A stretch of 29,151 nucleotides of DNA from Pseudoflavonifractor sp. AF19-9AC (GTDB lineage Bacteria; Bacillota; Clostridia; Oscillospirales; Oscillospiraceae): assembly GCF_003478995.1 (NCBI RefSeq), contig NZ_QUGI01000010.1:47788-76938 (forward strand), read 5' to 3'. Positions 2,531 to 21,720 of the stretch are shown here, piece after piece. Numbering within the stretch: position 1 is the stretch's first letter; each line of letters starts with the position of its first letter. The position numbers and the translations under genes are program-made. A model generated the notes under the pieces. The model was not told the DNA's origin and did no database searches. It saw only the letters and a list, made by a program, of their open reading frames with translations.

Positions 2531-3057
2531 ATTTCGCTTCCGAGCGAGTGACTTTCTGTGCAGACAGAAAGTCACCAAAGAACTGTCTAGGGGAAGGGGG
2601 ATTTCGACTTCCCCCTTCCCCTAGATACCCCATCCCCTTAAAACGACCAATCTCGTCCTCGCGGACTACATATCATTCGCCTCGCCCTTAAAAGGGCAAG
2701 GCTCACTCATTTCGTCGCTCGGTCCCTATCCCCTCTGTCCCTTTGGGACATCTCCCCTTGATAAGGGGAGTCAGCCTCTCCCAATGGAACCCGCTTCGCT
2801 GGGCTTCCATTGGGTCCCCACTTCGGTCCTCCCTATTGGATGTACCCCCAAGGGCTGATGGTGCCCTGAAAGGTTTCGCAACAAACTGGCGGAGCAGACA
2901 ACCCAACGCGCTGCCGGGTGCAACACTGGAAGGCGTATTCACTTTACAGCACGTTTCCGGTAATTCCACCATGTCCCGGCAGCATGAGCATCCACCCGAG
3001 CCCTCCCGCGAAAGCGGAAAGTTAGGCGCGTCGTCTCTTATAGAAGCAAGCGGTCAA
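2531..3057 (-). repeat. Family R modular hairpin repeat, copy R1 (one end missing)
   Basis: In order on the plus strand: end hairpin TCGCT tccg AGCGA (2534-2547); X1 hairpin GTGACTTTCTGT/ACAGAAAGTCAC (2548-2575); linker CCAAAGAACTG; W hairpin with a 15-bp stem (2586-2600 with 2611-2625) and ATTTCGA-type loop; CCTTAAAACGACCAAT; Y module (CGTCCTCGCGGAC...TTCGTCGCTC, about 2653-2730); Z hairpin CCCAATGGAA/TTCCATTGGG (2780-2814); then TATTGGATGTACCCCC and the AGTTAGGCGCG block. Compared with R2 and R3 it lacks the far end carrying the second X hairpin. No conserved protein is encoded; short open frames inside it are not shared between copies. Confidence 0.85.
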
Positions 3058-3061
3058 CGCC

Positions 3062-3082
3062 GGGCCGGTCTGGGACCGGCCC
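3062..3082. other. GC-rich hairpin
   Basis: A perfect 9-bp stem GGGCCGGTC/GACCGGCCC with a 3-base loop where R1 breaks off. There is no T-run. It may be another small repeat cassette. Confidence 0.5.
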
Positions 3083-3110
3083 CTACCAAATCAGCACCTC
3101 AAAATAAAAT

Positions 3111-3150
3111 CCGGCAGGAGCGACGAAAACGGTCACTCCTGCCGGTTTCT
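3111..3150 (-). terminator. Terminator after the FtsX-type permease (probably bidirectional)
   Basis: A 10-bp stem CCGGCAGGAG (3111-3120) / CTCCTGCCGG (3136-3145). On the minus strand it is followed by ATTTTATTTTG and on the plus strand by TTTCTTTTC. It lies about 80 bases beyond the permease stop codon, after repeat T1. Confidence 0.75.
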
Positions 3151-3157
3151 TTTCTTA

Positions 3158-3222
3158 CGGGCGCAGAGGCGAAGCGAAGCTTCGCAGAAAGTTCTTTGCC
3201 AAGCTTTCTTTCAAGAAAGCGG
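3158..3222 (-). repeat. Family T structured repeat, copy T1
   Basis: It starts 4 bases after the permease stop. On the minus strand: hairpin GCTTTCTT ga AAGAAAGC (3220-3203), linker GGCAAAGAACTTTCT, hairpin GCGAAGC ttc GCTTCGC (3185-3169), then CTCTGCGCCC. The architecture matches T2-T5. Confidence 0.85.
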
Positions 3223-3226
3223 TCTC

Positions 3227-6200
3227 CTACTCCACGGTTTTCAGGGACTCCACCATGTCCAGCTTTTTCAGCTTCCGGTGGGCGGCCAGATTGACCAGCA
3301 GGGAGAACACCACCGTCAGGGCCACCGCCCAGGCGTAGCTCTTCCACTGCAGCACCCGGCCAAACATGAGCAGATCAATCTCCACCGTGAGAATGAGCCA
3401 CTGGTGCAGGGCCTTACCCATGAGCATGCCCAACGCCACACCGAACACCGTGAGAATCACATTCTCCCGGTAGATATAGGCGGACAGCTCCCGGTCATAG
3501 AAGCCCAGCACCTTTAGGGTGGCCATCTCCCGCATGCGTTCGGTGATGTTGATGTTGGTAAGGTTGTAGAGCACCACAAAGGCCAGGGCTGCGGCGCACA
3601 CAATAATCAGAATCACCGCGTAGTCCACGCTCTCCAGGCTGGAGGAGAAGGTGCGCCGGGTGTCCTCGTTGAGGGACACCGTGGTCACTCCGTCCAGGGC
3701 CACCAGGTCGGAGGCCAGCTGGTCCGCTCCCTCCGCCTCCGGATCGTAATCCACCAGCACCACGTTGTCCTCCGGCGCCTGGCCGAAGAGGGTCTGGTAA
3801 TTGGCATCCGTGAGGTAGACGCTGTGCTGGATGTAGTGCTCGGTGATGTCGGCCACCCGGGCGGTCACCGTCTTGTCCCCCTCCAGGGTGATGGTGTCCC
3901 CCACCTCCACGTCCAGCAGCTTGGCCAGCTTCTCGGTGAGCACCACCCCGTCGTCAGGCAGCGTCACCGGCTCTGAGCTGGTGCGGTGGCGCAGGTTCAC
4001 AAAGCGCTCCAGCTCCTCCTGGTTGGCGGTGGTCTGGAGAGTAGCGTCAATGCTGTAGGCGTCGGTGCGGGCGGTCACGGTCTCAGAGCGGCAGGGGGCA
4101 AAGTCCGTCACCAGACCGCTGCCCTCCAGCAGCTCCTCCACCCCCCGCAGCTCCCCGGTAGTCACCTTGTCCACCAGGCCCACCTGGGCGGTGTAGCGGT
4201 AAATTTCGTCGTACTGGGTGTCCATAATATCCAGAATGGAGTCCCGCAGGCCGAAGGCCGTGACAATGAGGGCCGCGCAGCCGCCGATGCCCGCCACCGT
4301 CATCCAGAATCGCTTCTGGTACCGGAAGAGGTTGCGCAGGGTAATTTTATAGTTGAAGGACAGCCGCCTCCACAGGGGGCCTATCCGCTCCAGCAGGATG
4401 CGCCGCCCCATGGGCGGGGCCTTGGGCCGCATGAGCTGGGCCGGCACCGCCGCCAGGGTGGAGAAGCAGGCCCCCAGGGCCGCCAGGGTCACCGTTCCCA
4501 CTGCCGCGCCGCAGGCAAAGAGGGAGGTGGCGGGCTCCAGACTATAATAGATATCGCCGGTGGCGTAGATAATGCCCCAGGCGGTGCAGATAATCCAGGG
4601 CAGCAGGGTGAGGCCCACCGCCAGTCCAATGAGGGAACCCAGGGCGCTGGCCAGGAAGCCGTAGCCCACATATTTCACGGCGATGGCCCCCTTGGAGTAG
4701 CCCAGGGCCTTCAGTCCGCCGATGGTCACCCGCTGCTCCTCCACCATGCGGGTCATGGTGGTGAGGCACACCAGGGCCGCCACCAGGAAGAAAATCAGGG
4801 GGAAGACGCTGGCCAGGTTGCCCATGCGGTCGGCATCCATGGAGTAGCTCACATAGCCGGCGTTGGTGTTCCGGTCCAGCACGTACCAGGTGCACTCCTC
4901 AATGCTCTCCACATCCCGGCGGGCCTTGTCCAGCTCCTCCTGGGCGTCGCCAATCTTCTCGTCGGCCTCCGCCTTGCCCTCCAGATACTCCTGGTAGCCT
5001 TCCTCATACTCGGCTTCGCCGTCCCGCAACTCCGCCAGGGCGTCGTCCAGCTTGGCTCCGGCCTCCTGGAGCTCCGCCTCCGCGTCCGCCTTCTCCTGGG
5101 CCAGGGTGTCCCGGGCCTCCTGGAGCTCTACCAGACCGTCGGCGTACTCCTGCTCCCCTTCCTCATAGTCCTTGAGGCCCTGGGCATAGTCCGCCTCGCC
5201 CTCCTGGAGCTGGGCCAGCGCGTCCTCCAGCTGGAACTGGGCGTCGTCCAGCTCGTACTTGCCCGTCATCATCTCCAGCTTGCCGGTCTCCAGCTCCTTT
5301 TTGGCCTCCTCCAGCTCCTCCTTGGCCTCATCCAGCTGCTTTTTGGCGTCCTGCAGCTTCGCCTGGCCCCAGCGGTAATCCGCCCAGCCGCTGTCCAGCG
5401 CGGCGCGGCCCGCCTCCAGCTGGGCCTGGGCCGCCAGCAGCGCCTTGCTGTCGGCGGGGAGGGATGCCTTCTGGGTCTCCAGGGTCTTGATCTGAGCCTC
5501 CAGCTGGGCAATTCCGGCCTCCAGCTCCGGGAGCTTCTCCTGGCCCTCGGCCAGGGCCCCCTCCAGAGCGGCCAGCTGGGCCTCCAGCTCTGCGGTGTCC
5601 TCTCCCGCCGCCTGGGCCGCCGCGATGGCCTGCTTCACCTGTTCAATCTGGGCGGGCAGGGCATTGATCTCCTCCTGCTGGCTCTTGAGCCCGGACAGCT
5701 GGCGCTTGGCCTCTGCCAGACCCTCCTCCAGCTTACCAATGGAGGCCTGGAGGGTGGCGTCCACCAGGTCGGTGACCCGGAAGGTGCCGGAGCCGCCGCC
5801 GGTCTCCCCTTCTGTCCGCAAGGCGGGCGTCTGGGTCCCAAGGGCCAGAGCCGCCGCCTGTGTGCCGGTTGTTCCCTCTGCCGGAGGGGTGGTACCCTCT
5901 GTCCCCTCCTGGCCGCCGGTTTCTGCTCCCTCCCCATTGCCGGGGTCGGTTCCCCCCTCCGGGGGATCCACCGGGTCTGTGGCCCCGCCGCCCTCTCCGG
6001 GATCGGGGTCAGGGTCGGGCTTGGGATTGGCTGCCTCCTGTTTCAGGGCGGCGATGAGCTCCTCCCGGGTGAGGGTTACCCCCTGCTCTTTCAGGGGCGC
6101 CAGAATGTTGTCCAGCAGGGTGTTGAACTGCTCCAGATTGGCGGAGTACACGCTCTCCTGCTCGTTGAGGGTCCACAGGGCGGAGCTGAGCTGTCGCTTG

Positions 6201-7438
6201 CCGTCCTCGTACTCCTTGACCCCCTTCTCGTAGTCTTTCAGGCCGTCTTCATACTTCTTTTTGCCGCCCTCGTACTCTTTCAGGCCCTCCTCGTAGTCCC
6301 GGAGGCCCTGGGTGTAGTCGGCGTAGTTGGCGTAGTACTCCTCCCAGCCGTCGTCCAGCTCCTGGCGGGCGTCTGCCAGCTCCTGCTTGGCGTCGTCCAG
6401 CTCCTTCCGGGCGTCCTGGAGCTCCTGCTCTTCGTCGGCAATCTCTGCCTCCGCCTCGGCCACCTTGTCGTCCAGCTCCTGGCGGCCCTGGTTATACTCG
6501 TCCAGACCGTCGTAGTACTCCCGCCAGCCGTCATCCAGCTCTCTCCGGGCGTCCGCCAGCTCCGCTTCCGCGTCGGAGAGCTCCGCCTCGGCCTCGGCTT
6601 TGGCCTCGTCCAGCTCCCCCTGGGCCTCGGACAGCTTCTCATTGGCCTCGTCCAGAATACCCTCCCGGCGGAGCGGGGCCCGCACATCCCCCAGCTGTTC
6701 CAGCTGGGTCGTATAGCCCTCCATGAGGTCCTCATAGGCGTCGCTGTAGGTCTCCAGCTCCGCCGTCCCCTCCATCACCAGATAGGCGTCGGTGTAGGAG
6801 TCCATGGTAAAGGCCGCCTCCGGCAGCAGCACATAGGCGGACACCTTGCCTGTGCCCAGGGTGGAGCTACCCCGCTCCACGCCGATGTAGAGGGGCGTAT
6901 CGGCGGTACCCACAATGGTGAAGGTGTTCTGGGCCAGGGCGTCCTTGTAGTCCCCCTCACCGGTGTTCAGGGTGATCTGGTCCCCCAGCTTCAGCCCCGC
7001 CTCGGTCATCAGCCGGGGCTCCACCAGGCACTCGTCCGCCGCCTGGGGCAGACGGCCGTCCTTCAGGGCCGGGAGGTTCACATCTTCTGACAAGGATAAT
7101 GCCTTTACAATATAATCATTGTTCCCCCAGGGCAAAATGGCGTCGATGGTATAGGCCCCCCGGGCGGTCAACACCCCCGGCTCCTCCGCCAGGGCCGCGA
7201 TGTCCTCCTCCGTCAGTCCCAGGGTGGACACGATGCGCAGGTCCATCAGCTTCTGGCTGTCGAAGTACCGGTCCGCCGACAGCTTCATGTCCGGGGCCGT
7301 GGCCCGCAGACCGGCCAGGAAGCAGACCGCCAGGGCAGAGAGGATCATCAGGGAGAGAAAGCGGCTTCGGGTGCGGAGGATTTCCCGCACCGCGTCGGTG
7401 AGCAGCCGGTTGGGCGCCCGCTTGACCGTTCGTTTCAT
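3227..7438 (-). CDS. Large FtsX-type ABC transporter permease with extracytoplasmic coiled coil
   Basis: A 1403-residue membrane protein. One membrane helix lies at about residues 26-46, followed by a MacB-like extracytoplasmic domain to ~255. A very long Glu/Ala/Leu-rich coiled coil (~263-845) is split by a Pro/Gly/Thr-rich linker (~466-554). An FtsX domain with several helices follows (~865-1010), then a second extracytoplasmic domain and a C-terminal FtsX domain (~1270-1400). Around residues 383-418 there are five consecutive Tyr-Glu-x-Gly heptads. The start is supported by AAGGAGGGG (7448-7455). FtsX/MacB-type permeases use cytoplasmic ATPases to drive mechanical export or cell-envelope functions. 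The partner is the ATPase at 8373-9074, transcribed first, but ~930 bp of repeat DNA lies between them. Substrate unknown. It is longer than most family members because of the coil. Confidence 0.88.
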   Translation of the reverse strand: MKRTVKRAPNRLLTDAVREILRTRSRFLSLMILSALAVCFLAGLRATAPDMKLSADRYFDSQKLMDLRIVSTLGLTEEDIAALAEEPGVLTARGAYTIDAILPWGNNDYIVKALSLSEDVNLPALKDGRLPQAADECLVEPRLMTEAGLKLGDQITLNTGEGDYKDALAQNTFTIVGTADTPLYIGVERGSSTLGTGKVSAYVLLPEAAFTMDSYTDAYLVMEGTAELETYSDAYEDLMEGYTTQLEQLGDVRAPLRREGILDEANEKLSEAQGELDEAKAEAEAELSDAEAELADARRELDDGWREYYDGLDEYNQGRQELDDKVAEAEAEIADEEQELQDARKELDDAKQELADARQELDDGWEEYYANYADYTQGLRDYEEGLKEYEGGKKKYEDGLKDYEKGVKEYEDGKRQLSSALWTLNEQESVYSANLEQFNTLLDNILAPLKEQGVTLTREELIAALKQEAANPKPDPDPDPGEGGGATDPVDPPEGGTDPGNGEGAETGGQEGTEGTTPPAEGTTGTQAAALALGTQTPALRTEGETGGGSGTFRVTDLVDATLQASIGKLEEGLAEAKRQLSGLKSQQEEINALPAQIEQVKQAIAAAQAAGEDTAELEAQLAALEGALAEGQEKLPELEAGIAQLEAQIKTLETQKASLPADSKALLAAQAQLEAGRAALDSGWADYRWGQAKLQDAKKQLDEAKEELEEAKKELETGKLEMMTGKYELDDAQFQLEDALAQLQEGEADYAQGLKDYEEGEQEYADGLVELQEARDTLAQEKADAEAELQEAGAKLDDALAELRDGEAEYEEGYQEYLEGKAEADEKIGDAQEELDKARRDVESIEECTWYVLDRNTNAGYVSYSMDADRMGNLASVFPLIFFLVAALVCLTTMTRMVEEQRVTIGGLKALGYSKGAIAVKYVGYGFLASALGSLIGLAVGLTLLPWIICTAWGIIYATGDIYYSLEPATSLFACGAAVGTVTLAALGACFSTLAAVPAQLMRPKAPPMGRRILLERIGPLWRRLSFNYKITLRNLFRYQKRFWMTVAGIGGCAALIVTAFGLRDSILDIMDTQYDEIYRYTAQVGLVDKVTTGELRGVEELLEGSGLVTDFAPCRSETVTARTDAYSIDATLQTTANQEELERFVNLRHRTSSEPVTLPDDGVVLTEKLAKLLDVEVGDTITLEGDKTVTARVADITEHYIQHSVYLTDANYQTLFGQAPEDNVVLVDYDPEAEGADQLASDLVALDGVTTVSLNEDTRRTFSSSLESVDYAVILIIVCAAALAFVVLYNLTNINITERMREMATLKVLGFYDRELSAYIYRENVILTVFGVALGMLMGKALHQWLILTVEIDLLMFGRVLQWKSYAWAVALTVVFSLLVNLAAHRKLKKLDMVESLKTVE

Positions 7439-7582: not shown

Positions 7583-8170
7583 TTTCGCCTCCGGGCGAGT
7601 GACTTTCTGTGCAGACAGAAAGTCACCAAAGAACTGTCAAAGGTGGGAGGGATTTCGATCTCCCTCCCCCCTTTGAAATCCCCCCTCCTTAAAACGACCA
7701 ATCAGGGGGGACTGCGGTCCCCCCTATTGGATGTACCCCCCGGGGGCTGGCGGTGCCCTGAAAGGTCCAGCGAACAACCAGCGGAGCAGGTGACGAAACC
7801 CATAGCCGGGTGCGGCACCGGAACGCGGGGGGCACCGCACCGTTCCGGCAATCCCGCGCACGTCCCGGCGACGGAGCCGTCCACCTGAGCCCTCCCGCGA
7901 GGGCAGAAAGTTAGGCGCGATGTCCCTTGTAGAAGCAGGTGGTCATTCAACCGCTTCTTAGCGGCAGCGGTTGGCGCTTAGACACCCATTCTGGGCTTTT
8001 CCCGCGCCGATAAGGTATTTCAAACCTTCTTGATGGCTCCCCCGTAGAATAAATGGGGGTCCGGGGCGAATGCGACATAAAAACACGGAGTGTTTTTCCA
8101 GGCGCATTCCCCCGGCGGTTTTTTGGTTCCTTTTGCACCGCTGCAAAAGGAACTCGCCCAATGGGCGAAA
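7583..8170 (-). repeat. Family R repeat, copy R2 (both ends present)
   Basis: A nearly complete copy. Left end TTTCGCCTCCGGGCGA, then the X1 hairpin (GTGACTTTCTGT arms, about 7600-7627), linker CCAAAGAACTG, W hairpin (TCAAAGG..CCTTTGA, 7637-7676), CCTTAAAACGACCAAT, a GGGGGGAC/GTCCCCCC hairpin, TATTGGATGTACCCCC, the AGTTAGGCGCG and GGCAGCGGTTGGCGC blocks, the AAAACACGGAGTGTTTTT hairpin, and CCGGCGGTTTTTTGG. It closes with the X3 hairpin GTTCCTTTTGCA/TGCAAAAGGAAC and the right end TCGCCCAATGGGCGAAAC. The two ends form inverted repeats of each other. It lacks the Y and Z modules seen inside R1 and R3. No shared protein is encoded. Confidence 0.85.
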
Positions 8171-8171
8171 C

Positions 8172-8312
8172 GAGCCTCCCGCTCGCAGGTACTACCAAAC
8201 TGAAGCCCAGCGCAGCGGGTTCAGTTTGGAGAGGAGGTACAACGATATGCAGTTTGTACCGACGCGCCGACGCGGGCAAAGTAGGTCGCCCCGCAGGGTG
8301 AAACCATCCCCA
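8172..8312. repeat. Family R fragment next to R2
   Basis: Contains a Z hairpin, CCAAACTGAA (8195-8204) / TTCAGTTTGG (8220-8229), a partial Y-like stretch (GATATGCAG), a half X2 arm (GGCAAAGTAGG) and an end motif TCGCCCCGCAGGGTGAAAC. It looks like a truncated second element abutting R2. Together with R2 it fills the ATPase-permease gap. Confidence 0.7.
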
Positions 8313-9861: not shown

Positions 9862-9883
9862 TTCCTTTGTTTCCCGCTGTTTC

Positions 9884-9945
9884 CCGCTTTCTTGAAAGAA
9901 AGCGGGGCAAAGAACTTTGTGGGAAGCTACGCTTCCCCTCGCTCC
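9884..9945 (+). repeat. Family T structured repeat, copy T2
   Basis: Begins 22 bases after the tetR stop: hairpin CCGCTTTCTT ga AAGAAAGCGG (9884-9905), linker GGCAAAGAACTTTGT, hairpin GGGAAGC tac GCTTCCC (9921-9937). Same order and linkers as T1, T3, T4 and T5, but different stem bases. Confidence 0.85.
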
Positions 9946-11601: not shown

Positions 11602-11692
11602 TTTTTCAGCGGTCCCGCATTTCGACCTTTTATTTTCCATAATATGGTAAACTATGGATGAGATTACACCGCTGGATAAGGGGGCCGGGATC

Positions 11693-12499
11693 ATGCTGGG
11701 CATGACCAGAAAAGGGATCTATGAGACGGGAAAGGTGCTGTTTCTGCCGGTGGACGCCATCGTGCCCAACCCGGACCAGCCCCGGAAGCGCTTCTCTCAG
11801 GCGGAGCTGGAGGAGCTGGCCGGGTCTATTCAGGCCTTGGGGGTGCTGCAGCCCCTGACCGTACGCCGCCGAAGCGGCGGATGGGAGCTGGTGGCCGGGG
11901 AGCGGCGGCTGCGGGCCGCCCGGCTGGCGGGGCTCTCCCAGGTGCCCTGTCTGTCCATCCAGACTGACAGCCAGTCCTCCTCCCTGCTGGCCCTGGTGGA
12001 GAACCTCCAGCGGAAGGATTTGGACTTCTGGGAGGAGGCCAAGGCCCTCCGCCGCCTCATTGACACCTATTCTCTCTCTCAGGAGGAGGTGGCCCGGCGC
12101 ATTGGCAAGAGCCAGTCCGCCGTGGCCAACAAGCTGCGGCTCTTGAAGCTGCCCGAAGGGGTTCTGGAACAAATGTGCCAGTCTGGCTGCACCGAGCGCC
12201 ACGCCCGGGCCCTGCTGCGGCTGGAGGAACCCCAGGACCAGGTTCAGGCCGCCGCACAGGTGGTGGAACGACACCTGACCGTGGCCCAGACGGAGGCCCT
12301 GGTGGAGTCCATGGTGGCCCGGCAGCAGACTGCCCGCAAGAAGCCCACCTTTCTCATTCGGGACGTGCGGCTCTTTCTCAACACCATTACCAGGAGCCTG
12401 GACCTGATGCGGTCGGCAGGGGTGGACGCCCAGTGCCGCCGCACCGACACCGATCAGGAGATTCTGCTGACCATCCATATTCCCCGGCGACCCGGTTGA
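11693..12499 (+). CDS. noc: Nucleoid occlusion protein Noc (ParB paralogue)
   Basis: A 268-residue ParB/Noc-family protein. The N-terminal CTPase domain shows GERRLRA (about 69-75) and ENLQR (103-107); a helix-turn-helix lies at ~126-150; the C-terminal dimer domain (RDVRLFLNTI...LLTIHIPRR) resembles Bacillus Noc rather than Spo0J. The recognition region reads GKSQ..ANKLRLL: Gln and Lys stand where ParB has Arg and Thr, the switch known to change preference from parS to the Noc site. Noc protects the nucleoid from division. Start 11693 is preferred (AAGGGGG at 11679-11685); an in-frame ATG at 11654 lies within a probable promoter (TTCGAC..TATGGT, 11621-11648). Either start lacks an obvious amphipathic membrane-targeting helix like that of Bacillus Noc. 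Confidence 0.88.
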   Translation: MLGMTRKGIYETGKVLFLPVDAIVPNPDQPRKRFSQAELEELAGSIQALGVLQPLTVRRRSGGWELVAGERRLRAARLAGLSQVPCLSIQTDSQSSSLLALVENLQRKDLDFWEEAKALRRLIDTYSLSQEEVARRIGKSQSAVANKLRLLKLPEGVLEQMCQSGCTERHARALLRLEEPQDQVQAAAQVVERHLTVAQTEALVESMVARQQTARKKPTFLIRDVRLFLNTITRSLDLMRSAGVDAQCRRTDTDQEILLTIHIPRRPG

Positions 12500-12566: not shown

Positions 12567-12582
12567 TGTTTCACGTGAAACA
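12567..12582. promoter_or_regulatory. parS: parS centromere site 1 (perfect)
   Basis: TGTTTCACGTGAAACA is an exact match to the 16-bp bacterial parS consensus. It is the loading site for ParB, encoded 2.4 kb away. It abuts a family R module directly on its right side. Confidence 0.97.
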
Positions 12583-12709: not shown

Positions 12710-12724
12710 TTGGGATAGTTTCGC

Positions 12725-13414
12725 CCTGCGGGGCGACCTACTTTGCCCATGTCGGCAAAGTAGGCAAAACGCCACCCGGGGATGGCGTCTGGAAAAACAC
12801 TCCGTGTTTTTATGCCGCCTCCCCCGGACCCCCTGATATGTTTACGGGGGAGCCACCAAGAAGGTGGAAAAATCCAACCGGCGCAGGAAAAGCCCAGGAT
12901 GCGTGTCTATGCGCCAACCGCTGCCGCTAAGAGGTGGTTGAATTGCCTCCTGCTCCTACAAGATACAACGCGCCTAACTTTTGCCATCGCGGAAGGGCTC
13001 AGGTGGGCGGCTCCGTTACCAGGACGTGGGCGGTATTAGTGAAAACGCGCCGTAAGACGCACCGCGTTCCGGTGCCATACCCGGCTGCAGGTTCTGTTAT
13101 CTGCTCCGGTGGTCGGCCGCTGGTTCTTTCAGGGCATTGCTAGCCCCCGGGGGGTACATCCAATAGGGGGGGCGCAGTGTGAACCCAATGGAAGCCCAGC
13201 GTAGCGGGTTCCATTGGGAGAGGACGAGCGACGGAATGAATGAGCCTTGTCCTTTAGGGCAAGGCGAATGATATGACGTCCGCGAGGACGAGGTTGGTCG
13301 TTTTAAGGAGTGGGGATTTCAAAGGGGAGAGGAAAATCGAAATCCCTCTCCCCTTTGACGGTTCTTTGGTGACTTTCTGTCCGCACAGAAAGTCACTCGC
13401 CCGCAGGCGAAACA
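12725..13414 (+). repeat. Family R repeat, copy R3 (full length)
   Basis: The most complete copy. Left end GTTTCGCCCTGCGGGGCGA; X2 hairpin CCTACTTTGCC/GGCAAAGTAGG; GCAAAACGCC; the AAAACACTCCGTGTTTTT hairpin; GAGCCACCAAGAAGGTGG; CGCCAACCGCTGCCGC; CGCGCCTAACTT; a variable ~150-bp stretch; GGGGGTACATCCAATAGGGG; Z hairpin (13184-13193 with 13209-13218); Y module; ATTGGTCGTTTTAAGGAG-type block; W hairpin (13319-13332 with 13345-13358); X1 hairpin; right end TCGCCCGCAGGCGAAAC. Ends are inverted repeats. It separates noc from parA. No plausible gene lies between 12500 and 13618. Confidence 0.87.
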
Positions 13415-13531: not shown

Positions 13532-13560
13532 TTGAAAAGCCCTCCTGCGATTGTTATAAT
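13532..13560 (+). promoter_or_regulatory. Sigma-A promoter of parA(B)
   Basis: TTGAAA (13532-13537), 17-base spacer, perfect TATAAT (13555-13560), about 58 bases before the parA start. It lies just outside R3. Confidence 0.85.
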
Positions 13561-13618
13561 GAAATTCTGCAAACAGCCCGCGTCAGCGGGTGAACCCAAT
13601 TTCCCACAGGAGGCGCCT

Positions 13619-14383
13619 ATGGCCAGAATCATTGCTGTTGTCAACCAAAAAGGCGGCGTTGGTAAAACCACCACCACCGTGAACCTCTCCGCGGCCCTCC
13701 ACGACGCGGGCAAGCGGGTCCTGCTGTGTGACTTTGACCCTCAGGCCAATGCCACCTCCGGCATGGGTGTGGACAAAAACACCGCCTCCCCCAACGTCTA
13801 CGACGTGCTCATCAACGGTGCGGAGCCCCAGCGGGCGGTGCAGAACACCAAGTACGGCGATGTTCTCCCCTCCAACAAGGCCCTGGCCGGCGCGGGCATT
13901 GAGATGATTGGCATTCCCGACCGGGAAAACCTGCTGAAAAAGGCTCTGGGCGCCCTGTCCGACCAGTATGACTACATCTTCATCGACTGCCCCCCCTCCC
14001 TGGAGCTGCTCACCGTCAACGCCCTGTGCGCGGCGGACTCCCTGCTGGTGCCCGTCCAGTGCGAGTATTACGCTCTGGAAGGTCTCAGCGACCTGTTGGC
14101 CACAGTGCGGCTGGTGAAGCGGGGACTCAACCCCCGGCTGGCTCTGGAGGGCGTGCTGCTGACCATGTTTGACAGCCGCACCAACCTGTCCTTACAGGTG
14201 GCCGAGGAGGTCAAGCGCCATTTCCCCGGTCAGGTGTACGCCACCGTCATCCCCCGCAACGTCCGCCTTTCCGAGGCGCCTAGCCACGGCAAGCCCATCA
14301 CCGCCTACGACCCCTACTCCAGGGGCTGTGAGGCCTACACCGCCCTGGCGCAGGAGATGATCGCCATTCACGGGAAGGGATAA
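13619..14383 (+). CDS. parA: Chromosome-partitioning ATPase ParA (Soj)
   Basis: A 254-residue deviant Walker A ATPase: KGGVGKTT (11-18) with signature Lys, DFDPQ (38-42) and IDCPPSLE Walker B. The SEAPSHGKP motif of chromosomal Soj/ParA is near residue 222. It binds DNA non-specifically as an ATP dimer and works with ParB-parS in origin segregation; in Firmicutes it also influences DnaA. There is no N-terminal DNA-binding extension, as expected for chromosomal type. The start at 13619 has AGGAGG at 13608-13613; a longer open frame overlaps the promoter and is rejected. parB follows after 588 bp that hold repeat R4 and parS 2. Confidence 0.96.
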   Translation: MARIIAVVNQKGGVGKTTTTVNLSAALHDAGKRVLLCDFDPQANATSGMGVDKNTASPNVYDVLINGAEPQRAVQNTKYGDVLPSNKALAGAGIEMIGIPDRENLLKKALGALSDQYDYIFIDCPPSLELLTVNALCAADSLLVPVQCEYYALEGLSDLLATVRLVKRGLNPRLALEGVLLTMFDSRTNLSLQVAEEVKRHFPGQVYATVIPRNVRLSEAPSHGKPITAYDPYSRGCEAYTALAQEMIAIHGKG

Positions 14384-14433: not shown

Positions 14434-14881
14434 GAAGGATTTCGCCTGCGGGCGACCTACTTTGCCCGCGTCGGCAAAGTAGGCAAAACGCCGCCGGGGA
14501 ACGGCGTCTGGAAAAACACTCCGTGTTTTTATGCCGCCTCCCCCGGACCCCCCTGTTTTTCTACGGGAGAGCCATCAAGAAGGTGGAACGTACCCGGCCG
14601 GCGCAGGAAAAGCCCAGGATTGGTGTCTGTGCGCCAACCGCTGCCGCTCAGTACCGGTTGAATGACCTCCTGCTCCTACAAGAGGTATCGCGCCTAACTT
14701 CCTGCCCTCGCGGAAGGGCTCAGGTGGATGCTCCGCCGCCGCTTCCCTCCCCCGTCCGCCCGCAGGCGGCACCAAACCGGAGCCCAGCGAATGCGGGTCC
14801 GGTTTGGAAAGGACGAGCGACGGAATGAGCGAGCTCTGCCCACACTTGGGCGGAGCGAGGGATATGCAGTCCGCGAGGACG
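14434..14881 (+). repeat. Family R repeat, copy R4 (right end replaced by parS)
   Basis: GGATTTCGCCTGCGGGCGA end, X2 hairpin CCTACTTTGCC/GGCAAAGTAGG, CAAAACGCCGCCGGGG, AAAACACTCCGTGTTTTT hairpin, GAGCCATCAAGAAGGTGG, CGCCAACCGCTGCCGC, CGCGCCTAACTT, Z hairpin CCAAACCGGA (14772-14781) / TCCGGTTTGG (14798-14807), then the Y module ending GCAGTCCGCGAGGACG, directly joined to parS 2. The W hairpin, X1 and right end found in R3 are absent. It fills the parA-parB gap; no gene is visible in it. Confidence 0.85.
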
Positions 14882-14897
14882 CGTTTCACGTGAAACA
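14882..14897. promoter_or_regulatory. parS: parS centromere site 2 (one mismatch)
   Basis: CGTTTCACGTGAAACA matches the 16-bp parS consensus at 15 of 16 positions. It lies 75 bases upstream of parB and 2.3 kb from parS 1, so the pair brackets parA. Confidence 0.95.
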
Positions 14898-14971: not shown

Positions 14972-15862
14972 ATGGCAAAACGAAACATGGAACTGGGTCT
15001 GGGCCGTGGGCTCAACGCCCTGCTGGGCGACCCGGACCTCCAGCCTCAGGGGGAAGGCTCCGTCCTCCTCCCCATTTCCCAGGTTGAACCGGGGCTGAAC
15101 CAGCCCCGGAAGCGCTTTGACCCCGAGGCCCTGGCCGATTTGGCCGAGTCCATCCGGGTTCACGGCATCATTCAGCCCCTCACCGTCCGGCGGCTGGCCT
15201 CCGGCTACTACCAGATCATTGCCGGAGAGCGGCGCTGGCGGGCCGCCAAGGAGGCAGGCCTTGCGGAAGTCCCCGCCGTCATCATTGAGGCGGACGACCG
15301 GAAGGTGATGGAGCTGGGCCTCATTGAGAACCTCCAGCGGGAGGACCTGAACCCCGCCGAAGAGGCCCGGGGCTACCAGGTGCTCATGGAGGAGTACGGC
15401 CTCACCCAGGAGCAGGTGGCCCAGCAGATGGGCAAGTCCCGCCCCGCCATCGCCAACACCCTCCGTCTTCTGGCCCTGCCCGAGGACATTCTGAAGCTGC
15501 TGGAGGAGGAGGCCCTGTCCGCCGGACACGCCCGGGCCATCCTGGCACTCCCCTCCCCCGCTCTCCAGCGCCAGGCGGCCAAGAAGGTCATCGAGGGCCA
15601 GCTGTCCGTGCGGCAGACCGAGGCCCTGGTGAAAGCCCTCCAGAAGCAGAAGGCGGACAAGCCCAAGCCCGACGGTCCCGACCTGTCCCTCTATCTGGGG
15701 GAGCTGGAGAAGGACCTGTCCGGCCGTCTGGGCCGGAAGGTGAAGATTGCCCACCGGGGCAAAAAAGGCAAAATCGAGCTGGAATACTACAACGACCAGG
15801 ACCTGGAGGCGCTGCTGGCGCTGCTCCAGACCCTGCATGGGGAAGGAGGTGTCCAGCCGTGA
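14972..15862 (+). CDS. parB: Chromosome-partitioning protein ParB (Spo0J)
   Basis: A 296-residue CTP-dependent DNA clamp that loads at parS. The N-terminal LGLGRGLNALL (about 8-18) is the ParA-stimulating motif. The CTPase domain carries GERRWRA (85-91) and IENLQRED (118-125). The helix-turn-helix ends in GKSRPAIANTLRLL, with the Arg and Thr typical of parS recognition, in contrast to the Gln/Lys of the upstream Noc. A C-terminal dimer domain (KIELEYYNDQDLEALL) follows. ATG 14972 has AGGAG at 14960-14964. The stop overlaps the next start by four bases (GTGA), so it is translationally coupled to the downstream gene. Confidence 0.96.
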   Translation: MAKRNMELGLGRGLNALLGDPDLQPQGEGSVLLPISQVEPGLNQPRKRFDPEALADLAESIRVHGIIQPLTVRRLASGYYQIIAGERRWRAAKEAGLAEVPAVIIEADDRKVMELGLIENLQREDLNPAEEARGYQVLMEEYGLTQEQVAQQMGKSRPAIANTLRLLALPEDILKLLEEEALSAGHARAILALPSPALQRQAAKKVIEGQLSVRQTEALVKALQKQKADKPKPDGPDLSLYLGELEKDLSGRLGRKVKIAHRGKKGKIELEYYNDQDLEALLALLQTLHGEGGVQP

Positions 15863-17806: not shown

Positions 17807-17827
17807 GTTTTCCACAGGATGTCCACT

Positions 17828-17856: not shown

Positions 17857-17954
17857 TTTATCAAAATAATACTCCCGTCTCCAGCCGTTTCCGGCTCCTT
17901 GGATCGGTCTCAGGGTCATTTTGCCCTCTGAAAATCGCTCCAGAACGGAATTCG

Positions 17955-17997: not shown

Positions 17998-18059
17998 CCA
18001 AGGGAGGCGGGAGCTCCTCCGGCGGTCCAAAAAACCGCTGCAGGAACAAGGAGAACAAC

Positions 18060-18446
18060 ATGCGCGCGTTCATTTCCGAATTCAAGACCTTCATCGCCCG
18101 AGGCAACGTGCTGGACATGGCGGTGGGCGTCATCATCGGCGGCGCCTTCAAGGCCATCGCCGACTCCCTCACCAACGACATCCTCATGCCCCTGCTGGGC
18201 ATTCTGGTGGGCCGGGTGTCCTTCGCCGATCTGACCCTCACCCTGGGGGAGGCCCAGATCGCCTACGGCAATTTCCTTGAGGCGGTCCTCAACTTCCTCA
18301 TCATGGCCTTTGCGGTGTTCTGCATCATCAAGGCAGTCAACCGTTTCCACCGGAAAAAGGCGGAGGCCCCCAAGGCGCCCCCCGCCCCCTCCAACGAGGA
18401 GAAGCTGCTCATGGAGATCCGGGACCTGCTGAAGGAGAAGTCCTGA
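18060..18446 (+). CDS. mscL: Large-conductance mechanosensitive channel
   Basis: A 128-residue inner-membrane channel that opens under membrane tension to release solutes on osmotic downshock. The typical N-terminus (FISEFKTFIARGNVLDMAVGVIIGGAF) includes the amphipathic N-helix and the small-residue pore-lining helix. A second helix is at about 74-100 and a charged C-terminal bundle ends LLMEIRDLLKEKS. Length is normal. ATG 18060 is preceded by AAGGAG. Confidence 0.96.
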   Translation: MRAFISEFKTFIARGNVLDMAVGVIIGGAFKAIADSLTNDILMPLLGILVGRVSFADLTLTLGEAQIAYGNFLEAVLNFLIMAFAVFCIIKAVNRFHRKKAEAPKAPPAPSNEEKLLMEIRDLLKEKS

Positions 18447-18495
18447 CCTCCCCCCTCCCCTGCTCCACAGGGGAACCAAACAAAAAGGAGCGACT

Positions 18496-18840
18496 ATGTC
18501 ACACCACACCAATCCCCCCGAGGACCGGGAGGAGGAAAAGGGCTACGTCCCCGCCTCCCCGGTGAAGCGCACCCTGGCCTGGATTGCCCTATGTTACGTG
18601 CTCATTTTCCTGGCCCTCACCACCTACTACTTCTATACCGGCACCATGCTGGGCAATCTGGCTCCCCTGCTCACCGTGCCCGGCCTTATCGGCCTGGGGG
18701 CGCTGGCCCTGGTGAGCTGGCGCTCCACGGGCAACCCCGGGAAGCTGCCCGCTATCCTGCTGGCCCTGACGTGCTGGGTACTGGCCGCCGCCACCCTGCC
18801 GGTGGGGCTGGCCGGCCTTATGTCCAATTTCGGAGGCTGA
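18496..18840 (+). CDS. Small membrane protein, function unknown
   Basis: A 114-residue protein with a charged N-terminus (1-24) and about three hydrophobic helices (roughly 26-48, 53-71 and 80-108). It has AAAAAGGAG upstream of ATG 18496. It lies 49 bases after mscL and its stop is 3 bases before the rsmG start, whose ribosome binding site overlaps its last codons. No family recognised. Confidence 0.75.
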   Translation: MSHHTNPPEDREEEKGYVPASPVKRTLAWIALCYVLIFLALTTYYFYTGTMLGNLAPLLTVPGLIGLGALALVSWRSTGNPGKLPAILLALTCWVLAAATLPVGLAGLMSNFGG

Positions 18841-18843
18841 GCC

Positions 18844-19557
18844 ATGGAAGCATTGATCGCCCAGGGGCTGGAGGAGCTGGGGCTCACCGCCCAGGTGCCT
18901 GCCCAGGCCCCCGCTCAGCTGGCGGAGTACGGCCGGCTGCTGCTGGAAAAAAATCAGGTGATGAACCTCACCGCCATCCGGGAGGAGGACGGCGTGGCGC
19001 GGCTCCACATGCTGGACTGCGCCGCCCTGCTCCGCTATGCCGATTTTCAGGGGAAAACCCTCATTGACGTGGGTACCGGGGCGGGCTTTCCCGGCCTGGC
19101 CCTGAAAATTCTGGTGCCCTCCCTGAAGGTCACCCTGCTGGACGCCCTGGGAAAGCGGGTCAACTGGCTCAACGAGGTGGCTCAGCGGCTGGGTCTGGAG
19201 GGCGTAGAGGCCATCCACGCCCGGGCCGAGGAGCAGGCCCAGGTAAAGGGCTTCCGGGACAGCTTTGACTTTGCCTCCGCCCGGGCGGTGGCCGATCTGC
19301 GGCTTTTGAGCGAGCTGTGCCTCCCCTATGTAAAGGTGGGGGGCCAGTTTCTGGCCATGAAGTCGGTGGAGTCCGGCCCCGAGCTGGAGGGCGCCGCCCA
19401 CGCCGTGAAGTTTATGGGCGGCCGGGTGCGGGAGACGGTGGACTACACCATCCCCGGCACCGACGTCACCCACCGGGTGGTCCTGGTGGACAAGGTGGCC
19501 CCTACGTTAAAGGGCTATCCCCGGCGTTGGGCCAAAATTCAGAAGGAACCCCTGTAA
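18844..19557 (+). CDS. rsmG: 16S rRNA (guanine-527-N7)-methyltransferase
   Basis: A 237-residue SAM-dependent methyltransferase of the GidB/RsmG family that modifies G527 of 16S rRNA. SAM motif I is DVGTGAGFPG (75-84), preceded by NQVMNLTAIRE; KRVNWLNEVAQRLGL and FASARAVADL follow, all diagnostic. Start ATG 18844 follows GGAGG in the end of the preceding gene. In many Firmicutes rsmG lies beside mnmG and upstream of noc; here it is downstream of parB and without mnmG/mnmE. Confidence 0.96.
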   Translation: MEALIAQGLEELGLTAQVPAQAPAQLAEYGRLLLEKNQVMNLTAIREEDGVARLHMLDCAALLRYADFQGKTLIDVGTGAGFPGLALKILVPSLKVTLLDALGKRVNWLNEVAQRLGLEGVEAIHARAEEQAQVKGFRDSFDFASARAVADLRLLSELCLPYVKVGGQFLAMKSVESGPELEGAAHAVKFMGGRVRETVDYTIPGTDVTHRVVLVDKVAPTLKGYPRRWAKIQKEPL

Positions 19558-19652
19558 GGGGTTCTCTGCCCAAAGGGGGCAGTTCCAGTTCCTGGCACAT
19601 ACTTCCAGGTTCTGCCGGGGACAGGAAAAACATTCCGAAACCCATTCCCCGC

Positions 19653-19693
19653 CAATTTTGGTTGAAAATCCAAAATTGTTGGAAGATTTTTTT
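19653..19693 (+). terminator. Probable terminator after rsmG
   Basis: A 9-bp stem CAATTTTGG (19653-19661) / CCAAAATTG (19670-19678) followed within 9 bases by seven T (19687-19693). Closer to the stop there is also a GAACCCCT/AGGGGTTC hairpin overlapping the rsmG stop codon, without a T-run. Confidence 0.5.
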
Positions 19694-19734
19694 GCGTATT
19701 TGTGACTTTTTTGGCGCTATTTACAAAAAAGCCA

Positions 19735-19762
19735 TTGACGGCCACCAAATTTGTGGTAAACT
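19735..19762 (+). promoter_or_regulatory. Sigma-A promoter of the MinD-like gene
   Basis: TTGACG (19735-19740), 16-base spacer, TAAACT (19757-19762), 28 bases before the start codon. The spacer is nearly an inverted repeat, CCACC AAATT TGTGG, which could be an operator. Confidence 0.65.
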
Positions 19763-19789
19763 TTTAGTTGGTAAGTGAGGAGGCTTTTC

Positions 19790-20524
19790 ATGGGTGTAGT
19801 AATCACAGTTACCTCCGGAAAGGGAGGGACCGGAAAGACCTCCATCACCGGCGGCGTAGCCGCCTCCCTGGCCCTGATGGGGCGCAGGGTCTTGTGCATT
19901 GACATGGACATTGGCCTTCGCAATCTGGACATCTCCCTGGGCCTGAGCGACCGGGCGCTGATGGACTTTACCGACGTGGCCATGGGCTACTGCCCCCTGG
20001 CCCGCGCCGCGGTAAACCATCCCGAACTGCCCGGTCTTTCTTTGCTTACCGCGCCCATGTCTCTGCCCAGCGGGCTTACCGCCGGCAAGGTCCGCGCCCT
20101 GCTGGACACTGCCCGCAGTCTCTATGACGCCATTCTCATCGACTCCCCCGCCGGTTTGGGTGTAGGGTTCCGCATGGCCGCCTGCGGTGCTGACCGCGCC
20201 CTGGTGGTGGCCACCAGCGACGCCTCCTCCCTGCGGGATGCCCAGCGCACGGTGCTGGCTCTGGCGGGGTTGGGGCAGGTCCATCTGGTGATGAACCGCA
20301 TCCAGCCCAAGCTGCTGCACAAGCTGCGCACCACCATTGACGACGCCATGGATACCGCCGGACTGCCCCTCATGGGTGTGGTCCCCGAGGACCCCAGGGT
20401 CATGCTGGCCGCCAACCGGGGCATCCCCCTGGCCACCCTGGAGCGGAAGGGCGCCACCCTGGCCTGCTGGAACATCGCCCAGCGGCTGGAGGGCCGCCAG
20501 GTCCCCATTATGCGAATCCGATGA
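19790..20524 (+). CDS. Orphan MinD-like ATPase (ParA/MinD superfamily)
   Basis: A 244-residue deviant Walker A ATPase: SGKGGTGKTS (9-18), CIDMDIGLRNLD (36-47) and LIDSPAG Walker B. The GLRNLDISLGL segment is the MinD signature rather than ParA. The C-terminus (QRLEGRQVPIMRIR) does not show the amphipathic membrane-targeting helix that ends classic MinD, and no minC or minE lies nearby. Start ATG 19790 has GAGGAGG at 19777-19783; a GTG 15 bases earlier is less likely. The next gene starts 52 bases later and is probably co-transcribed. A role in spatial organisation is possible but unproven. Confidence 0.85.
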   Translation: MGVVITVTSGKGGTGKTSITGGVAASLALMGRRVLCIDMDIGLRNLDISLGLSDRALMDFTDVAMGYCPLARAAVNHPELPGLSLLTAPMSLPSGLTAGKVRALLDTARSLYDAILIDSPAGLGVGFRMAACGADRALVVATSDASSLRDAQRTVLALAGLGQVHLVMNRIQPKLLHKLRTTIDDAMDTAGLPLMGVVPEDPRVMLAANRGIPLATLERKGATLACWNIAQRLEGRQVPIMRIR

Positions 20525-20576
20525 ATGTTCCCGGCCTTCGGGCCATAGGTACTTATATAAAGGAGGTAATGCCACC

Positions 20577-20993
20577 GTGAATATCGCACTGATGAGCCAT
20601 ACCAAGAAACAGGATTTGATGGTTCAGTTCTGCACCGCCTACTGCGGCGTATTGTCCAAGCATACCGTCTGCGCCACCAACGCCACCGGCCGCATGGTTG
20701 CCGAGGCCACCGGACTGCCCGTCAGCCTGTTTTTGTCCCATGAACACGGCGGCATTGAGCAGATCGGCCAGCGCATTGTCTACAACGAAATCGACATGGT
20801 GCTGTTCTTCAACTCCCCCCTGGACAACGAAATGGACAAGGACATCCTCTACATTTCCCGCCTGTGCGACCAGCACTCCGTCCCCATGGCCACCAACGTG
20901 GCCACCGCCGAGCTTCTGATCCACGGCCTGGCCCGGGGCGATCTGGACTGGCGCGAGGTGATGAACCCCAACCGGGTCCCCTTCTCCCTGTGA
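20577..20993 (+). CDS. Methylglyoxal-synthase-like protein lacking catalytic residues
   Basis: A 138-residue protein aligning end to end with MgsA, which turns dihydroxyacetone phosphate into methylglyoxal. Kept: IALMSH start, ATGLPV, IDMVLFF, PLDNE, VPMATNVATAELL. Changed by my alignment to E. coli MgsA: Asp20 to Thr9; the GTTG phosphate loop to NATG; the SGPMGGD loop with catalytic Asp71 to SHEHGGI (Ile60); Asp91 to Ser80; His98 has no equivalent. Asp101 may survive as Asp89. So it is probably not an active MgsA. The GTG start at 20577 has AAGGAGG at 20560-20566; the ATG at 20569 would give a 3-residue peptide. Automated labels would likely call it mgsA. Confidence 0.85.
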   Translation: MNIALMSHTKKQDLMVQFCTAYCGVLSKHTVCATNATGRMVAEATGLPVSLFLSHEHGGIEQIGQRIVYNEIDMVLFFNSPLDNEMDKDILYISRLCDQHSVPMATNVATAELLIHGLARGDLDWREVMNPNRVPFSL

Positions 20994-20997
20994 GGAC

Positions 20998-21026
20998 TTG
21001 ACTTTTTCCCCTTTTTGGGGTAGCAT
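20998..21026 (+). promoter_or_regulatory. Sigma-A promoter of the T-box/hisS-aspS transcript
   Basis: TTGACT (20998-21003), exactly 17 bases, TAGCAT (21021-21026). Predicted start about 21033, just before the first strand of T-box stem I. Confidence 0.7.
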
Positions 21027-21032
21027 TAAGTC

Positions 21033-21280
21033 CATCCACACCGCCGTGACGGCGCATGAGTAGCCCGGTTACCGCCCAACAGAGAGAACCCCCCTCGGCT
21101 GAAAGGGGTTTGGGGAAATGGCCCGGAGGAAGACAGCGTCAGCAGCGGGCCCGGAGACGGGTGCGGTCTCCTTCCCGCAACAGAAGGCGAAAGGGGCGCG
21201 TGAAGCGCCTGAAATTGGGTGGCACCACGAAGCGTGTTCGCGCTCTCGTCCCAATGATGGGATGAGAGCGCTCTTTTTTT
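21033..21280 (+). promoter_or_regulatory. T-box riboswitch with aspartate signals, upstream of hisS-aspS
   Basis: T-box leaders sense uncharged tRNA and allow transcription of synthetase genes. Stem I spans about 21041-21150 with the AGTA S-turn (21059-21062), AGAGAG (21081-21086), distal loop GGCTGAAA and the specifier loop GGAAGACAG, in which GAC (21132-21134) is an Asp codon. A GGAGAC/GTCTCC stem follows. The T-box core TTGGGTGGCACCACG (21215-21229) is present. Its bulge TGGC would pair with GCCA, matching the G73 discriminator of tRNA-Asp and not the C73 of tRNA-His. The terminator is at 21240-21280. The next gene, hisS, starts 680 bases later, beyond repeats R5 and T3; aspS is second. 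Confidence 0.9.
21240..21280 (+). terminator. T-box conditional terminator
   Basis: A 13-bp stem GCGCTCTCGTCCC / GGGATGAGAGCGC (one G-U pair) with a 6-base loop and a T7 run (21274-21280). It competes with the T-box antiterminator just upstream. Confidence 0.92.
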
Positions 21281-21361
21281 CTCAAGTACCGGGTTGGGAT
21301 AGAATTGTCTTTGTCCGGTGGACGTTCTCACCAAACAGCTGGGAACAATATCAAAAAGATA

Positions 21362-21720
21362 TTTCGCCCCCGGGCGAGTTCCTTTTGCAGCGGTGCAAAA
21401 GGAACCAAAAAACCGCCGGGGGACGGCGTCTGGAAAAACACTCCGTGTTTTTATGCCGCCTCCCCCGGACCCCCTTTGATTTTACGGGAGAGCCACCAAG
21501 AAGGTGGAAAAAATCCAACCGGCGCGGGAAAAGCCCAGGATTGGTGTCTGTGCGCCAACCGCTGCCGCTAAGGCTCAACTGAATTCCTATTGGCTTCTAC
21601 AAGAGGCGTCGCGCCTTCGTTTCTGCCCTCGCGGAGGGCTCAGCCAAATGACTGCACCGCTCATTTTCTTTACGAACCAGCTCTGCGGCGCGGCTCGACC
21701 GCATGCAGTCACTCTTAAAA
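21362..21720 (+). repeat. Family R repeat, copy R5 (right half missing)
   Basis: End TTTCGCCCCCGGGCGA, X3 hairpin GTTCCTTTTGCA/TGCAAAAGGAAC, CCAAAAAACCGCCGGGGG, AAAACACTCCGTGTTTTT hairpin, GAGCCACCAAGAAGGTGG, CGCCAACCGCTGCCGC, GTCGCGCC, CCTCGCGGAGGGCTCAG. Z, Y, W and X1 are not recognisable. With T3 it occupies the T-box to hisS gap, where no gene is visible (21281-21962). Confidence 0.82.

Follow-up and report, generated by a model that had tools for sequence, protein, structure and literature searches.

Modular protein-less repeats of Oscillospiraceae carry a hairpin head in which three strands co-vary

What keeps the changing stems of interspersed palindromic repeats paired, and what moves such repeats, are the two parts of an old puzzle, which is raised again by a stretch of 29,151 nucleotides (nt) of Pseudoflavonifractor sp. 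AF19-9AC (contig NZ_QUGI01000010.1, positions 47,788 to 76,938; the whole of this stretch is called the window). An earlier inspection of its letters, the sequence-only reading, had described there a family R of modular intergenic elements whose hairpin stems differ between copies and stay paired. We read the window copies directly and studied the family in related genomes (G numbers) and loci (L numbers); the family is real and extends far beyond the window. The copy number, the modularity, the convergent doublets, the presence or absence of copies between species, the nearly perfect arms of a central hairpin, X, and the co-variation of three strands were all observed. We consider it probable, short of confident, that family R consists of protein-less, non-autonomous mobile elements of Oscillospiraceae, the head of which would be recognised as a folded single strand by a predicted enzyme acting in trans.

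On the strand where X reads CTTT...AAAG, the head is composed of a terminal hairpin (TTTCGCC-loop-GGCGA), then X, then a tail. X spans 28 nt, of which each arm takes 11-12 and the loop 4-6, and the tail has 12 nt and begins with CAAA. The window, which covers a parAB region, contains seven intact heads and one truncated head. Three X stems were read directly, GTGACTTTCTGT at 2548 and 7599 (+) and at 13369-13396 (−), CCTACTTTGCC at 12737 and 14456, and GTTCCTTTTGCA at 21378 (+) and 8126 (−), and all of them are perfectly complementary (7/7). The two kinds of ends reported before, TCGCC/GGCGA and TCGCT/AGCGA, were found again: X is preceded by GGCGA or AGCGA in the heads of the window and of relatives. 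Heads are joined to one of several bodies: A2, in the window and, by eye, also in G013 and G012; A1, in most copies printed from G013-G015; or B, which is a W hairpin followed by CCAATC...TATTGG with nested cassettes such as Z. The W hairpins at 2586-2625 (16 bp) and 13319-13358 (14 bp) are perfect and that at 7637-7676 has one T/C mismatch in 16, while the five Z hairpins (2780, 8195, 12656, 13184 and 14772) present three stem sequences, all paired over 10 bp. A repeat search of the window showed the linkers common to the copies (repeats D2-D4, D7-D9 and I1-I10), and no protein is common to them, as had been claimed. Five copies and fragments had been counted; the copies stand, but 8126-8170 and 13357-13412 are not fragments. 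As these are full minus-strand heads, 7583-8170 and 12719-13412 each form a pair of converging heads.

The pairing of X was quantified in a gap-free alignment (alignment A1) of 61 distinct 40-nt units (136 occurrences), defined by the five bases before X, a 28-nt spacing to CAAA and either CTTT or AAAG; pairing was not required for selection. In the X stem 99.0% of the cells are paired, with 145 two-sided changes versus 42.6 in shuffled alignments and a covariation of 0.599 versus 0.148, and one-side changes amount to 0 in all 11 pairs. Watson-Crick pairs make up 662 of the 671, the remainder being 2 G-U, 5 A-C and 2 others. X is also perfect in 76 of 79 copies picked by element similarity, and the terminal hairpin shows 217/221 Watson-Crick pairs in 33 distinct forms. 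A second helix is formed by the loop and the tail (columns 13-17 with 35-39), with 80.7% of pairing versus 69.5% shuffled, 43 two-sided cells versus 14.4, and a covariation of 0.390 versus 0.198; on these three measures none of 500 shuffles was as high, and slid versions of the helix reached a covariation of at most 0.195. Considering that related sequences can exceed shuffles, the slid controls weigh more, and so do 13 inner/loop/tail classes from later-fetched loci that were new to the analysis, 6 of which contain loop-tail runs of 4 or more. Covariation lies above shuffles in the X stem and the loop-tail helix; in the A1 body hardly any was found.

Besides pairing with the loop, the tail is a reversed repeat of the 3' arm of X, as in the pairs AAAGAAAAG and CAAAAGAAA, or AAAGGAAAG and CAAAGGAAA. 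Over 35 distinct inner arms the mean mirror run is 5.31 versus 3.75 in permuted data (maximum 4.54 of 5,000), and 85 of 102 arm-tail levels are identical in letter versus a permuted mean of 42.3 (maximum 60 of 10,000). At the levels above the invariant CTTT, every arm A stands opposite a tail A (59/59), G stands opposite G in 25/27 cases, and C opposite A in 14/16; the fresh classes gave A-A in 17/17 and G-G in 4/4. The length of the inner stem correlates with the purine run of the tail (0.62 over 65 units). About 2.1 Mb yielded 1372 hairpin sides, of which 71 are X-type; 28 of these 71 have mirror runs of 8 or more versus 11 for a direct-repeat control, which lacks the loop and is not fully matched. 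The two crossing helices co-vary, more weakly in G144, and the letters agree with a triple rule for the third strand. To judge by these letters, the three co-varying strands fit an H-type pseudoknot with a base-triple strand, and the arm-tail correspondence would suit both a purine-motif triplex on the X strand and a pyrimidine-motif triplex on the other strand.

A purely mutational origin, in which template switching makes and repairs palindromes in neutral DNA without any recognition, has to be considered at this point. According to the cited passages of PMC8794818, template switching produces paired multi-base changes in one event and without intermediates, and the X stems show no intermediates. 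Copying of one arm from the other, however, yields reverse complements and not mirrors, and it can create neither a tail that mirrors the arm nor the co-variation of loop and tail; the tail-arm mirror therefore needs selection or the common descent of a few cassettes. Considering also that the A1 body is strongly conserved between the copies of G013, G014 and G015, we regard this explanation as very improbable.

The nature of the mispairs bears on whether the head acts as DNA or as RNA. In the G013 and G012 stretches and the window, 119 terminator-like hairpins contain 44 G-U, 11 A-C and 30 other mispairs among 1185 pairs. Non-Watson-Crick pairs are rarer in the X arms (9/671 versus 85/1185, p=3e-9), and so is wobble on the more favourable strand (p=6e-5), in a comparison with hairpins that were chosen with up to two mismatches and were not sampled like the X units. 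In the X stem G-U is no commoner than A-C. Since the X arms are nearly all Watson-Crick and G-U is scarce, the data favour maintenance or exchange of arms at the DNA level over ordinary RNA compensation.

The main rival to mobile DNA is a functional structured RNA read from the strand opposite X, with an H-type pseudoknot near its 3' end, spread through the genome and active within transcripts, for example as a 3'-end protector or a regulator. In this geometry a U/C-rich loop would run parallel to a purine arm and form U.A-U and C.G-C triples in the major groove, and exactly these triples, in parallel polarity, result when the A-A and G-G levels of the X strand are read on its complement; the four freely varying distal base pairs would lie where a crossing of the deep groove would omit them. 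Compared with shuffled sequences, the window A2 element shows a fold of z −3.21 on its minus strand, better than chance, and a weaker one of z −1.57 on its plus strand. The loop-tail mispairs are 34 A-C, which are G-U on the other strand, versus 4 G-U, but a single end pair accounts for 26 of the 34 A-C, and 8 versus 2 are left when it is removed (p=0.11). The stems contain at most 5 G-U in 671 on either strand, compared with 44/1185 in the terminator-like hairpins. The A1 body, mainly conserved in sequence, is almost without covariation on both strands; its RNAalifold energies of −18.6 and −17.1 on the two strands, versus about −2 in 40 column-shuffled controls each, rest on an invariant GGCGC/GCGCC and one hairpin. 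Ends of R elements have no significant preference for the strand of the upstream gene, on which they lie in 15/24 cases (p=0.31), or in 14/23 when the unit at 23327, of a related class described below and preceded by GGGCGA by chance, is left aside. No match to Rfam was obtained for the window at gathering scores, and in 13 related loci, at E up to 1, the three matches are all sub-gathering and outside R elements. Against a plain structured RNA speak the near absence of G-U in X and the body conserved in sequence, and we hold an RNA of this kind to be unlikely.

The abundance of the elements is consistent with spreading. A scan of 827 kb, made up of the window and 797 kb from G013 and G012, gave 82 CTTT-hairpins, 35 of them with a CAAA tail, versus 5 and 0 in one mononucleotide shuffle. 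The full head pattern occurs 94 times in G013, 59 in G015, 35 in G003, 29 in G014, 7 in G012 and 2 in G004, and not in G147 or G050; the reversed-pattern control gave 0 in all 8 genomes. The window element 14434-14740 has matches in 11/20 related genomes, mostly to its first 120 bases (the head and the Y region), and the A1 element of L092 in 8/8 chosen genomes, with 6 to 74 matching pieces each. A looser X-tail pattern was found in 38/150 genomes of the family, partly by chance, as the reversed control also matches some. Viral contigs scanned with two patterns and genome contigs scanned with a 24-base A2 pattern gave 0 matches, and no match was obtained for the window A2 element in a plasmid collection or for the L092 A1 element in a phage collection.

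Two heads often face each other. Among the matches listed, neighbouring heads less than 1 kb apart are convergent in 17/17 cases, counted by eye, at distances of 426-931 bp (5 in G003, 9 in G013, 1 in G012 and 2 in the listed part of G015, with none listed for G014). The G003 doublets, 540-551 bp apart, have unlike X at their two ends and outer inverted repeats, TAAATTTTnGTTT, a 17-base form of which occurs at 24 places in G003 and at none in 18 other genomes; in the window and G013, unlike G003, the inverted parts are the heads alone. In G144:C1, variants of X of its own stand as convergent pairs 327-432 bp apart (1281560/1281907, 1675660/1676092 and 2281870/2282197), and L288 carries an inverted repeat without a head. 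Some heads carry, in the loop of their terminal hairpin, a larger swapped cassette of one of two kinds (L118, L125, L140, L144 and L177, and L130, L142, L160, L169 and L178). Another hairpin repeat, AAGGTGnC-[stem]-GnCGGATGAGG, with paired and varying stems, is often joined to R elements in relatives, e.g. L092, L094 and L109.

Movement was examined at orthologous sites. By Pfam the window encodes a ParB-like protein (11654-12499), ParA (13532-14383), ParB (14972-15862), SerRS and HisRS, of which we take the first, by its position, to be Noc, and the next two to be Soj and Spo0J. The best match of Soj in genome contigs (89% identity) lies in a metagenome-assembled genome of Oscillospiraceae (L001), where Spo0J is 92% identical to that of the window, and further close matches belong to Lawsonibacter, Pseudoflavonifractor and Flintibacter. 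The soj-spo0J gap, of 588 bp in the window, contains head 6 and its A2 body, both of which are absent from this gap in L001, L003 and L026; L001 (in part) and L003 keep its Z region and parS-like site. The noc-soj gap measures 1032 bp in the window, 207 bp in L001 and 187 bp in L003, and both relatives lack its doublet. As relatives lack two of the window copies between the same genes, R elements insert. In the noc-soj gap of L026 a degenerate head is seen, where L001 and L003 have none.

At other orthologous sites it is the stem that differs. The upstream flanks of L117/L156 and of L119/L127, the two upstream pairs used in a BLAST comparison that is cluttered by other repeats, are 88.9% identical over 153 bp and 89.8% over 157 bp, and in both pairs X is wholly different while the element and much of the body are kept. 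In L081/L082, X and Y are identical and the 3' part differs. A related X of L117/L156, of the TGAA-loop class, keeps its inner stem and the first part of its tail, with different outer stems (GTTCC/GGAAC and CCTAC/GTAGG). From these four comparisons, stem letters change both by exchange and by paired change, and the compensatory change or exchange of hairpin cassettes that had been proposed as alternatives are both seen.

These data can be assembled into a mechanism. The head would combine the terminal hairpin with a pseudoknot formed by X, where pairing joins loop and tail and the tail probably follows the stem as the third, base-triple strand. The form recognised by an enzyme supplied in trans would be this head as a folded single strand, either extruded DNA or a transcript, with one common head attached to any of several bodies and two heads often facing as a doublet. 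New stem letters may arise through paired changes, through template switching, when one arm is copied from the other, and through swaps of head cassettes from copy to copy.

Several results weigh against this proposal or narrow it. The copies share ancestry, and the permutation values are for this reason not probabilities. In alignment A1, out of five measures, the number of pairs with a two-sided change and that of further pair types are not clearly above shuffles, and the loop-tail helix slid by +3, evaluated on 3 of its 5 pairs, reaches 73.2% of pairing. Of the 13 fresh classes 7, among them all 5 from G144, have no loop-tail run as long as 4, and this pairing was not seen by eye in a variant of G085 and G164; arm C in the fresh classes faces A twice and G three times. 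The ends of the two window insertions are located with an uncertainty of tens of bases, there is no clear target duplication, with at most TA at the G003 ends, and no clean excision was seen. In five stretches of 2.5-4.7 kb between convergent heads (L262-L266) no mobilising gene was found, and the nine open reading frames scanned there are ordinary genes, in a scan that did not cover every frame or search the genomes exhaustively; one of these stretches encodes MurB, RapZ, CofD and WhiA.

Another candidate for the enzyme is already known. Classical repetitive extragenic palindromic sequences and their doublets (REP/REPIN) are mobilised by RAYT (TnpA-REP) transposases, and the R elements would be of this type if moved by the RAYT of these genomes; they share with it many short hairpins per genome and facing doublets, and RAYT-like genes exist in 12/20 genomes. 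The hairpins associated with RAYT follow a GTAG rule, as stated in the cited passages of PMC8266576 and PMC6006769, but no GTAG or GTGG stands at the foot of X or of the terminal hairpin in the heads read. Among 26 RAYT loci, some of which repeat one gene, 24 have a GTAG/GTGG hairpin inside the gene or within about 0.75 kb of it, and one, L255 of the head-rich G013, has an X-like unit at about 0.6 kb from its RAYT gene. Nor is the presence of RAYT associated with that of R (8/11 versus 4/9, p=0.36). RAYT genes accompany GTAG repeats and not R heads; RAYT was rejected as the driver, and we find a classical REP/REPIN origin highly improbable.

The GTAG-type hairpins (GTAGGGGCCGGTC...GACCGGCCC and similar) occur in the window at 3061-3086 (−) and in many flanks of G012, G013 and G015 loci, and they too change their stems while remaining paired. 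Some, frequently two in inverted orientation, lie within the coding frame of RAYT itself (e.g. L242, L243, L249 and L250), and one of G012 in such a frame reads VGRGLAPA in the protein.

A smaller X-tail class, with loops TGAA, TAGA, TAA or CGAG, lies at the 3' ends of genes in G013 and others and follows the same mirror rule; its pattern was found in 14/300 genomes, with 0 for the control. Its members sometimes stand 0 nt after the stop codon or hold the stop in the loop. The window contains one at 9883..9928 (+; repeat D17), 21 nt after a called gene, one at 23327..23372 (+; from repeats, gene calls and Pfam), whose loop includes the HisRS stop codon 23337-23339, and one with the loop CGAG at 25281..25320 (+; hairpin scan), 0 nt after a called stop codon; further units were seen by eye on the minus strand at 3196 and 21768. 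This class raises the explanation that the R heads are transcription terminators or other fixed 3'-end signals, as in 6/6 cases outside called genes it follows a gene of the same strand, twice 0 nt after the stop; another four fall within genes as called by a simple method, which may be in error there. The R heads themselves have no T-run, occur in either orientation and are absent from orthologous gaps, which leaves terminators as the most improbable of the explanations considered.

The elements of the window can now be described in order. Head 1 (2532..2587, +) has the terminal hairpin TTTCGCT/AGCGA, a perfect X at 2548-2575 and a tail at 2576-2587, with 4/5 loop-tail pairs including one G-U. 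It is followed on the same strand by the W hairpin of body B (TCTAGGGG...CCCCTAGA, 2586..2625, read directly), by the stem CCAATC...TATTGG (2647..2839; repeats I2, I13 and I15), which holds the Z cassette 2780-2814 between its arms, and by the 3' part of the body (2845..2935; repeat D8, 73% to 7737-7827). A remnant of a convergent A2 body, of which the head is lost, lies at 2970..3056 (−; repeats D9 and I12). The gene of a 1403-aa FtsX-like protein (3227-7438, −) contains at 4905-6655 a 21-base repeat pattern that probably encodes a coiled coil.

The first doublet opens with head 2 (7583..7638, +; repeats and direct reading), with the hairpin TTTCGCC/GGCGA, X at 7599-7626 and its tail, on which follow the W hairpin with one mismatch (7637..7676, +; direct reading) and the remaining body B, with CCAATC...TATTGG and the 3' part (7698..7828, +; repeat I6 and direct reading). 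Its convergent partner comprises an A2 body (7880..8125, −; repeat I1, 83% complementary to 14539-14728) and head 3 (8126..8170, −; repeat I7 and direct reading), formed by X 8126-8153 with the stem GTTCCTTTTGCA and a terminal hairpin. The truncated head (8264..8303, −; repeat I14) retains the hairpin, the 5' arm of X and the loop, with most of the 3' arm lost.

In the parAB region, head 4 (12719..12776, +; direct reading) has its hairpin, X at 12737-12764 with CCTACTTTGCC and a tail, and is joined to an A2 body with a Y hairpin (12777..13037, +; repeats D2 and D3), the part absent from the noc-soj gap of L001 and L003. Facing it are a block at 13062..13358 (−; repeats I2, I5, I6 and I15) and head 5 (13357..13412, −; repeat D14 and direct reading), with tail, X at 13369-13396 and terminal hairpin. 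Head 6 (14440..14495, +; direct reading), with hairpin, X at 14456-14483 and tail, precedes an A2 body (14496..14735, +) and the Z hairpin CCAAACCGGA/TCCGGTTTGG (14772..14807, +), at the place of which L001 and L003 hold a Z with other stem letters. Palindromes like parS adjoin Z modules on either side of soj, at 12567-12582 and 14882-14897 (TGTTTCACGTGAAACA and, with one mismatch, CGTTTCACGTGAAACA), and the one before spo0J is common to L001, L003 and L026. Head 7 (21362..21417, +; direct reading) has its hairpin, X at 21378-21405 with GTTCCTTTTGCA and a tail whose ACCGC pairs with GCGGT, and it leads into the A2 body at 21418..21640 (+; repeat D2, 79%).

The loop-tail pairing, the mirroring of the arm by the tail, the convergent doublets and the evidence of insertion were not foreseen by the sequence-only reading. 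Its statement that no named family has this layout holds against Rfam and against the open-access literature, where the head layout was not found described in a search only partly aimed at it. An interspersed, protein-less palindromic element is of a known kind; a head with three co-varying strands is new to us. As a wider proposal, which we advance tentatively and would give somewhat less than an even chance, the three-strand pseudoknot would be the recognised end of a class of mobile repeats of Oscillospiraceae, with a triplet code (A of the purine strand with U/T, and G with C), loop-tail pairing, several unrelated bodies and a smaller repeat class at gene ends that share the one head, the arms being renewed at the DNA level by copying or exchange, so that their letters would drift and the match of the three strands would persist. 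The copies in a few genomes amount to a natural covariation experiment that includes a third strand, which copying from arm to arm cannot create. A base-triple end, or a triple-helix RNA in tens of copies, can thereby be tested with 40-nt oligonucleotides. Heads that are transposon ends would add pseudoknots to the simple hairpins known as structure-recognised ends; heads that are RNA would mean an unusually large set of triple-helix pseudoknots in one genome of these gut bacteria.

Known systems resemble the R elements in part. Bacterial miniature inverted-repeat transposable elements (MITEs) and modular repeats such as BOX, bcr1 and Correia are intergenic, protein-less, modular and insertion-like. 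The R elements share these traits, and the G003 copies have outer inverted repeats, but no parental insertion sequence or clear target duplication was found for them, and their stems diversify and yet stay paired. H-type pseudoknots with a triple helix occur in telomerase and SAM-II. They are described also for SAM-V and guanidine-III (PMC6061858 and PMC5696562). X, read on the opposite strand, has the same order of strands and the same triple rule; those pseudoknots, however, are sensors or parts of ribonucleoproteins, whereas a single genome has many copies of the knot of R, whose stems change and contain hardly any G-U.

REP/REPIN sequences, as R, are short hairpins in up to hundreds of copies that form head-to-head dimers, often of unlike partners, and the CGTC repeats are likewise without a dedicated transposase in the cited passages of PMC3733652. 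The R elements differ from them: they lack a GTAG/CGTC tag at the foot, measure hundreds of bases per unit and come with several bodies, and their tails pair with the loop and mirror an arm as a third strand. The compensatory evolution by template switching described in PMC8794818 explains paired changes without intermediates, but not the mirrored tail. Beside Y1 genes no X-like hairpin was found in 11 Y1 loci. The ends of IS200/IS605 elements offer a further likeness, as they are recognised as folded single strands with base triplets that involve the 3' flank of the hairpin; their own features, in the cited passages of PMC5934647, are a guide tetranucleotide 5' of the hairpin and two triplets, whereas in family R the tail mirrors about 4-10 bases of the arm and the heads face each other.

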